Source: Haloactinopolyspora alba | GTDB taxonomy: Bacteria > Actinomycetota > Actinomycetes > Jiangellales > Jiangellaceae | Length of the DNA: 64,000 nt | Direction: 5' to 3' | Assembly (NCBI RefSeq): GCF_003014555.1 | Contig: NZ_PYGE01000019.1 | Coordinates: 1 to 64,000, forward strand | Shown: positions 124 to 2,259 of the stretch, piece after piece | How the letters are laid out: each line of letters begins with the position of its first letter | Position numbering within the stretch: the stretch's first letter is position 1 | Position numbers and translations under genes: made by a program | The notes under the pieces: generated by a model | What the model was told of the DNA's origin: nothing | Seen by the model: only the letters and a program-made list of their open reading frames with translations | The model's database searches: none

Positions 124-2259
124 TCACGGGCTGGAGGTGCCGAACCAGCGTTCGTACAGGGTGTCGTACTCGCCGCTCTCGACAAGTTCGAGCAATGCGA
201 CGTCGATGCGCTGGCGCAGTCCGGAGCCGTACGCGGAGCCGACGCCATAGCCGAACTCCTCGAAGACCGCCCCCACGACCTGCAGGTCGCCCTCCCCGGA
301 GTGCGCGGCCTGGTACTGCAGCACCGGCGCGTCGTGCACGAGCGCATCGACACTTCCCGCGCGCAGCGCGGCGTAGGCCTCGTCGGGGCTGTCGAACAGC
401 ACCGGGCCGAGCCCGCGTGCGGTCAGGTACTGCGCGCCGTGGGTCTGCGCGACCGAGCCGACGCTGTGCCCGGCGAGGTCGTCCGGGCCGGTGATCTCGC
501 CGCGGATCTCGTCGACGGCCATGGTGCTGGTGATGCTGGCGGTGAAGTAGGCGAGCAGGAAGTAGCCGGCGAGGATCCAGCCGACCGCGAACACCCGCGC
601 CAGGTTCCGCCGCGGCGTGTTGTTTCCGGCGCCGAACGGGGTGATGGCGACCACCGCCCACCAGATCGACTCCGGGATTCCGTGCAGGTAGTCGGTGGGG
701 ATGTCCGGGTTCCGGCGCCGCTCGAGCAGCCAGATGATGTGCCCGACGACCAGCAGGATCAGCCCGAAGATCACCGCGAACCAGAGGATCCAGGTCACGA
801 TTCTGCTGCTGGCGATGCGGCTCAGGGTGGAGCCGATACCGGAGCCTTCCTCGCTGGCCACCATCACCTGCAGCCCGGAGTCCAGCGTGGGCTGGGACAG
901 CGCCAACGAGCGGGCCCGGTCGGCGGTGATGTCCAGGCCGCCCAGAGCGACGTCGGCGGCGCCTCGTTCGACGTCGTCGATCTGCTTGGCCAGACTGTTG
1001 ACCTGCTGGATCTCGTAGTCGGCGCCGAGATTCTCGGCGATCAGACGCCACAGCTCCACGCTGAACCCGGTGTAGGACCCGTCGGAGTACACGACGAACG
1101 GTGCCAGGGCCCGGGTCGCGACGGTGAGCGTCCCGTCGTCCTGGGTGGGAGCCGGGTCGTCCTGGCCGGAACCGGCCGGGCCGCCGTTCTGGCCCGAGCC
1201 CGCCGGGCCGCCGTCCTGCGCCCGGCCCGGGTCGGCGGTCGCCAGCCACTCGTCCACCTGGCCACGGTTCTGTGCGATCCACTCCCGCGCGTGCCGCCGG
1301 ATGTCGGCCGGCGCGCCCTCGCCGGCGCGCATCCGGGCGTTCTGCGCGGAGATGTCCTCGAGTGGGATGGTCACGGCCCGCAGCAGGCGGCGGACGGGCG
1401 GGTGCTCGTCCAGGAACGCGCTGTTGCCGACGGCCCTGATGTCGTTGGGCGGCCAGCCGTCGGGGACGTCGAGCCAGGTGACGTCCTCGCCGGGGACGAG
1501 CTCGCCGACCGTCCAGTTCGGTGTCCACGTGTAGAACAGCACCGGTTCACTGCGCTGATACCGCTCGACCACGTCGTCCATCCGCGGCGCGTAGTTGCCC
1601 TGGACGTGCGTGACGGTCTCGCGCAGACCGAGCTCGTCGAGGTGGCGTTCGATCACCGACTCGCATCCCCACCCGACCTGGCAGCCGAGGAGGTCGGCTT
1701 TGCCGTCGTCGTCGGTGTCGAAGTGCTCGGCCACGGCCGGGTCGGCGAGATCGGCCAGCGACGTGATGTCGTGGCGCTCGGCGCTGGCGCGGTCGATCAG
1801 GTAGCCCTGACGGGCGCCGTCGCTGACCTGTGTTCCGACCGGTTCCACCGCGCCTTTCGCGCCGACCTCCTCGATGGCGGTGTTGTGCAGCGGGAACCAG
1901 CCGTTCGCCCACAGGTCGACGTCGCCGGCCGCCGCGGCTCCGTAGAACTCGGCGTTGCCCATCGTGGTGACGGACTCGACGGAGTAGCCGAGCTCCTCGA
2001 GCAGCTGGCGATACACCTCCGCCTGGAACCAGCCGGTGTCCCAGGTCGCGCGCGCCATCCGGATGCTTTCGGCGCCGCTGCCCGGGTCACCGCCGTCGCC
2101 ACCGCCGGCACCGTCGTCGCGGTCGTCGCCGGTGCCGGTTCCCGCCGCACCGGGCGTCGCGGCGGCAACCGTGGCCGTCGCCGCGACGGTGAGCAGGACG
2201 AGGAGCCGACGCAGCGCGGTCACCCGAGGTGACGGTTCGGTTCGGCGGCGCCGCTCCAT
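124..2259 (-). CDS. Glycine-betaine-binding domain fused to a glutamate-receptor-like (GluR0-type) ion channel
   Basis: The protein has 711 residues. After a signal peptide or anchor (residues 14-40) comes an OpuAC/ProX-type domain (about 64-335) with the betaine-box-like DLWANGWFPLHN, a calcium-loop-like DTDDDGKAD and GCQVGWGCE. A Gly/Pro linker with two GGPAGSGQ-like repeats (346-375) leads to lobe 1 of a family 3 solute-binding domain (376-475). That domain is split by a transmembrane helix (487-512), a re-entrant pore segment (528-550) and a second helix (555-580), and lobe 2 follows (583-705). Lobe 1, TM-pore-TM, lobe 2 is the architecture of bacterial glutamate receptor channels such as GluR0. 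YFTASITSTM lies where animal receptors have SYTANLAAF. The potassium filter TVGYG is not conserved; ITPFGAGN replaces it. A ligand-gated channel sensing betaine-type and amino-acid-type ligands is inferred. It lies 66 bp downstream of the LLM oxidoreductase gene on the same strand. Confidence 0.85.
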   Translation of the reverse strand: MERRRRTEPSPRVTALRRLLVLLTVAATATVAAATPGAAGTGTGDDRDDGAGGGDGGDPGSGAESIRMARATWDTGWFQAEVYRQLLEELGYSVESVTTMGNAEFYGAAAAGDVDLWANGWFPLHNTAIEEVGAKGAVEPVGTQVSDGARQGYLIDRASAERHDITSLADLADPAVAEHFDTDDDGKADLLGCQVGWGCESVIERHLDELGLRETVTHVQGNYAPRMDDVVERYQRSEPVLFYTWTPNWTVGELVPGEDVTWLDVPDGWPPNDIRAVGNSAFLDEHPPVRRLLRAVTIPLEDISAQNARMRAGEGAPADIRRHAREWIAQNRGQVDEWLATADPGRAQDGGPAGSGQNGGPAGSGQDDPAPTQDDGTLTVATRALAPFVVYSDGSYTGFSVELWRLIAENLGADYEIQQVNSLAKQIDDVERGAADVALGGLDITADRARSLALSQPTLDSGLQVMVASEEGSGIGSTLSRIASSRIVTWILWFAVIFGLILLVVGHIIWLLERRRNPDIPTDYLHGIPESIWWAVVAITPFGAGNNTPRRNLARVFAVGWILAGYFLLAYFTASITSTMAVDEIRGEITGPDDLAGHSVGSVAQTHGAQYLTARGLGPVLFDSPDEAYAALRAGSVDALVHDAPVLQYQAAHSGEGDLQVVGAVFEEFGYGVGSAYGSGLRQRIDVALLELVESGEYDTLYERWFGTSSP

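Follow-up and report, generated by a model that had tools for sequence, protein, structure and literature searches.

Ger et al. (2010) described 22 prokaryotic iGluR-type channels, with a K+ filter in Group 1 and without one in Group 2; neither betaine nor OpuAC is mentioned in that paper (PMC2950845). Bacterial GluR0 and the prokaryotic iGluRs are said to be without an N-terminal domain, and in open reviews this layer is regarded as having been added later (PMC6385376, PMC12551409). Here we describe a fused gene in the window, the whole 64,000-nucleotide stretch of Haloactinopolyspora alba DNA that was analysed. Like the Group 1 channels GluR0 (Synechocystis) and NpGluR1 (Nostoc), its product has an SBP_bac_3 core split around M1-P-M3 and no M4. 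The K+ filter of these channels is common to the wider fused family, whereas the lineage of the window is without TVGYG, and of the three proteins only that of the window has an added N-terminal ProX domain. Group 2 channels resemble it in combining GluR0 topology with the absence of a recognisable K+ filter (PMC2950845), but the cyanobacterial solo non-K+ filters (mostly ATQAD/E) differ from TPFGAGN in length and sequence, and on our tree the window protein lies inside the K+-filter fused clade.

The N-terminal domain shares its fold, three-Trp cage and disulfide cysteines with E. coli ProX/OpuAC (1r9l), which is normally free or ABC-linked, whereas here it is built into a channel as its N-terminal layer. 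Eukaryotic iGluRs (AMPA, NMDA, plant GLR) also stack two bilobed layers above the pore, and the D643 region and M3 motif of the window protein resemble those of NMDA and plant receptors. In contrast, the eukaryotic N-terminal domain is LIVBP-like (type I fold) and is accompanied by M4 and a different filter, whereas ProX is a type II periplasmic binding protein. The N-terminal layers of the eukaryotic receptors and of the ProX-fused family look independently acquired. The open literature yielded no account of a ProX-fused channel or of a prokaryotic iGluR with an N-terminal binding domain, and nothing relevant on betaine and glutamate-receptor channels, in agreement with the first-pass annotation, which knew of no described precedent for the betaine module.

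Two binding modules in one channel chain

The minus-strand ORF encodes 711 aa from an ATG start without internal stops (Table 1). Every Pfam match of the protein exceeds the curated cut-off: OpuAC at residues 65-330 (E 1.8e-56, 192 bits, profile positions 2-257 of 257), SBP_bac_3 at 378-707 (E 2.4e-25), divided around an insert, Lig_chan at 490-599 (E 4.8e-13) and Ion_trans_2 at 527-580 (E 1.7e-6). NCBIfam PRK11119 identifies the N-terminal half as ProX (324 bits, with the cut-off at 215). In a PDB sequence search, the nearest solved structures are E. coli ProX 1r9l for residues 59-341 and the Nostoc GluR0 ligand core 2pyy for the stretches 378-476 and 586-708. The window protein is a GluR0-type channel with a ProX/OpuAC domain up front. 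It lacks eukaryotic iGluR features, since the N-terminal domain is OpuAC rather than LIVBP-like and the chain stops after S2 without an M4. The earlier claim of two binding modules in one chain is thus borne out by OpuAC and a split SBP_bac_3 in a single frame, and the proposed GluR0 topology by the Pfam matches, PDB matches and AlphaFold2 model, all of which split the SBP_bac_3 fold by M1-P-M3.

Table 1. Features of the fused gene (positions in the window)
Feature	Residues	Position	Strand	Basis
Entire ProX/OpuAC-iGluR fusion gene	711 aa	124..2259	-	ORF and Pfam
Putative signal peptide / N-terminal hydrophobic segment	1-40	2140..2259	-	Arg-rich start, then LLVLLTVAATATVAAA; helix 11-30 predicted
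ProX/OpuAC betaine-binding domain; cage W121, W197, W245; C193, C199	60-345	1225..2082	-	Profiles, structure comparison
Gly/Ser/Gln-rich linker	346-375	1135..1224	-	Disordered in model
Ligand-binding lobe S1, including R448 (conserved carboxylate-binding arginine position)	376-485	805..1134	-	Pfam, PDB match, alignment
M1 transmembrane helix	486-513	721..804	-	AlphaFold2
Pore helix and loop	524-549	613..690	-	Pfam, AlphaFold2
Altered selectivity filter TPFGAGN	540-546	622..642	-	Alignment
M3 helix; YFTASITSTM at SYTANLAAF-like gate position	552-585	505..606	-	Alignment, AlphaFold2
Ligand-binding lobe S2, including D643 (amino-group-binding acid position)	586-709	133..504	-	Pfam, PDB match, alignment

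AlphaFold2 was run with 36 family members and gave a monomer model with a mean pLDDT of 79 and a low pTM of 0.48, at which the mutual placing of the two modules is not readable. Two lobes flank M1, the pore helix (524-539) and M3, so that the pore unit lies where it had been proposed, between the lobes (486-585), with a block pLDDT of just 55-76 between the filter and the end of M3. When compared with known structures, the model has ProX 1r9l as its top match (Z 32.8 over 287 residues), and the GluR0-type cores 2pyy (Z 26.9 over 212 residues) and GluR0 1ii5 (Z 25.1) are matched too.

Both putative ligand sites are conserved. E. coli ProX W65, W140 and W188, which form the aromatic cage in 1r9l, correspond to W121, W197 and W245, and C136/C142, the disulfide cysteines, to C193/C199. 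Our 56-row family alignment includes the window and omits one Jiangellaceae copy (L018) because of its gap; in it W121, W197 and both cysteines are kept in all 56 rows and W245 in 49, the others having F or Y. R448 and D643, which from motif alignment and family knowledge we take to be the iGluR positions for the carboxylate and amino groups of an amino acid, are each kept in 55 of 56 rows. The residue at the R448 position is lost in Phytoactinopolyspora halophila (L017), where the rest of the channel is kept; with one of three Jiangellaceae copies affected, amino-acid binding may be weakened in this lineage. The conserved residues suggest glycine betaine or a related quaternary-ammonium osmolyte as the ligand of the N-terminal module, and an amino acid as that of the second. 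Sequence does not discriminate between glycine betaine, proline betaine and choline, whether for the OpuAC domain or for the neighbouring BCCT carrier.

A fused family across phyla

Apart from the copy in the window itself, a genome-wide scan recovered 55 fused homologues of full length. They span at least five phyla (Actinomycetota, Cyanobacteriota, Thermodesulfobacteriota, Chloroflexota and Bacteroidota) and also Kiritimatiellae. Isolates such as P. halophila, Salsipaludibacter albus and Halomicronema sp. CCY15110 are among them, and P. endophytica also carries the fused gene, with an assembly gap inside it; most of the others are MAGs, whose individual phylum assignments need caution. Within Actinomycetota, copies occur in Jiangellaceae, Acidimicrobiia and Nitriliruptorales. 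Distribution is sparse in the window's order (3/22 genomes), and in cyanobacteria 68 of 291 sampled genomes have an iGluR core, with 4 verified fused copies among those 68. The apparent break in the L018 gene is a run of N, and we rejected the reading of this gene as broken.

The contig end lies just 124 bp from the gene end, which could point to two genes having been joined artificially by misassembly or a frameshift. We regard this as so improbable as to be negligible, because full-length homologues recur in other genomes and cluster on the tree; the gene is complete, its frame is uninterrupted, and the same fusion with a conserved junction is present in more than 50 other assemblies, isolates included. 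The betaine module is no peculiarity of this gene; it marks out a family spread over several phyla. Separately, a Chloroflexaceae MAG encodes OpuAC fused to an uninterrupted SBP_bac_3 without a pore (L080:294-2465, +); by its domain content this appears to be a tandem binding protein and not a channel.

We placed 98 channel cores on a tree, where the fusion label must change twice to account for the 63 fused rows; a single change is found in 62% of bootstrap trees. The fused set together with two cyanobacterial solo cores forms one side of a branch with support 100/100. This is compatible with a single gain of ProX and one loss, and also with a single gain if the two solo channels are sister to the fused set. 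The cyanobacterial channels L134 and L135 are without ProX and fall with the fused clade; their loci were searched for a ProX frame and none turned up.

A rewritten selectivity filter in Jiangellaceae

The segment T540-P-F-G-A-G-N546 aligns gap-free to TTVGYGD. In the family alignment the filter is [T/S]TVGYGD in 54/56 rows and TPFGAGN in the remaining two (window and L017); L018 likewise reads TPFGAGN. These three Jiangellaceae proteins, the only fused ones with this sequence, are without the TVGYG of Group 1 (K+ type) iGluRs. The altered filter reported in the first-pass annotation is therefore confirmed, but as a change confined to these copies, the other fused homologues having TVGYGD. An exact-pattern search for TPFGAGN in 297 Actinomycetes-class genomes matched no channel frame beyond the three known copies; six further matches lie in short non-channel frames. 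As a separate observation, many cyanobacterial solo iGluRs (L137-L152) have a shorter ATQAD/E-type filter replacing the K+ filter.

On the tree, the rows with GAG make up a single clade (support 100) that is nested among GYG channels, and this holds with the filter columns removed as well. Because of this nesting, and because the other fused homologues carry TVGYGD, the GAG filter is derived: judged from alignment and tree, TTVGYGD changed to TPFGAGN inside a K+-filter family and was then kept in Jiangellaceae. Among the three Jiangellaceae species compared, M1-P-M3 is the most conserved part (79-86% identity, dN/dS 0.09-0.25), and residues 533-552 are identical between the window and L018 despite a pS of 0.52. 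The filter segment is under strong purifying selection in Jiangellaceae, which together with the conservation of M1-P-M3 argues for maintenance of the altered pore. From what is generally known of K+ channels, GAG in place of GYG would lower K+ selectivity; a literature search on alanine substitution in GYG gave no usable source. A filter rewritten and then conserved predicts a weakly or non-K+-selective cation pore in Jiangellaceae, within a fused family whose pore is probably K+-type.

Osmolyte carriers beside the channel and a proposed function

Within the fetched flanks, a BCCT betaine/carnitine/choline transporter gene lies near 41 of 59 fused loci versus 1 of 20 ProX-only control loci (Fisher p 4.8e-7, a value that overstates the evidence as the loci are related). 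It is usually adjacent to the fused gene, often with a stand-alone OpuAC protein, and in the deltaproteobacterial loci L067 and L072 BCCT, OpuAC and channel follow in that order on one strand. Upstream of this cassette in the deltaproteobacterial loci is an enolase-superfamily gene, MR_MLE (L067:1404-2462, +), which might be part of betaine metabolism. No BCCT or separate OpuAC gene lies beside L017 or L018, the Jiangellaceae loci with both flanks, and no BCCT gene within the fetched flanks of the cyanobacterial fused loci; the window's genome has four BCCT genes, all elsewhere. The osmotic role proposed earlier thus gains independent support from the BCCT and OpuAC neighbours of relatives, but such neighbours are absent beside the Jiangellaceae copies.

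A heteromer with a K+-filter iGluR subunit was considered and rejected, as the search of the window's genome found no second iGluR core. With a single core found, the channel is probably homomeric. Plasmid matches are below 60% identity to the channel core, and those listed are unannotated or annotated as substrate-binding proteins.

Our favoured reading, which we consider likely, is an osmolyte-regulated, ligand-gated channel of GluR0 type, a homotetramer with an added ProX layer, weakly or non-K+-selective in Jiangellaceae. The loss of the K+ signature, the missing R448 in L017 and the absence of a BCCT neighbour in Jiangellaceae would also suit a receptor whose pore is dead in this lineage, the protein surviving as a sensor or osmolyte-binding protein anchored in the membrane. 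We find this unlikely, since a nearly frozen filter within the most conserved part of the protein would be needless if the pore were dead. Less likely still, and improbable overall, is a transporter accessory in which the iGluR part is a mere anchor for ProX, the latter passing betaine on to a permease of BCCT or ABC type. The BCCT and stand-alone OpuAC genes adjoining most fused relatives are in keeping with such a role, but most of these loci already have a separate OpuAC protein, and the preservation across phyla of the K+ filter, the M3 gate motif and the ligand-binding Arg and Asp exceeds the needs of an anchor. We also know of no requirement of BCCT carriers for a binding protein.

In the osmolyte-regulated channel that we favour, the membrane-proximal S1S2 clamshell would close on an amino acid and pull M3 to open the pore, as in other iGluRs, and the ProX layer would act as co-agonist or modulator, like the N-terminal domain of animal iGluRs. 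Osmoadaptation proceeds through K+ import and compatible-solute accumulation to later K+ export (PMC5818414). For most of the family, the K+-type pore and the BCCT and OpuAC neighbours make it probable that the channel links the supply of osmolyte outside the cell to K+ release, which would balance charge as K+ is swapped for betaine. It would serve the last step of osmoadaptation, in which betaine outside and its carrier-driven uptake with Na+ are met by a compensating outflow of K+. In the Jiangellaceae lineage, without the K+ signature or BCCT neighbours, the sensing modules keep this architecture and probably drive a cation conductance of another kind. We give roughly even chances to the broader proposal that an animal-like two-layer receptor evolved independently from a ProX layer and GluR0, in a family gating K+ by external betaine beside its carrier, with one lineage switching selectivity through a GYG-to-GAG change.

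Widespread in bacteria and with another type of binding protein as its upper layer, this family offers a natural comparison for the control of gating. The ProX-fused channels would tie osmolyte sensing directly to K+ flux. Some of them keep the K+ filter intact and others have it rewritten, a contrast that may serve for testing the evolutionary loss of selectivity.
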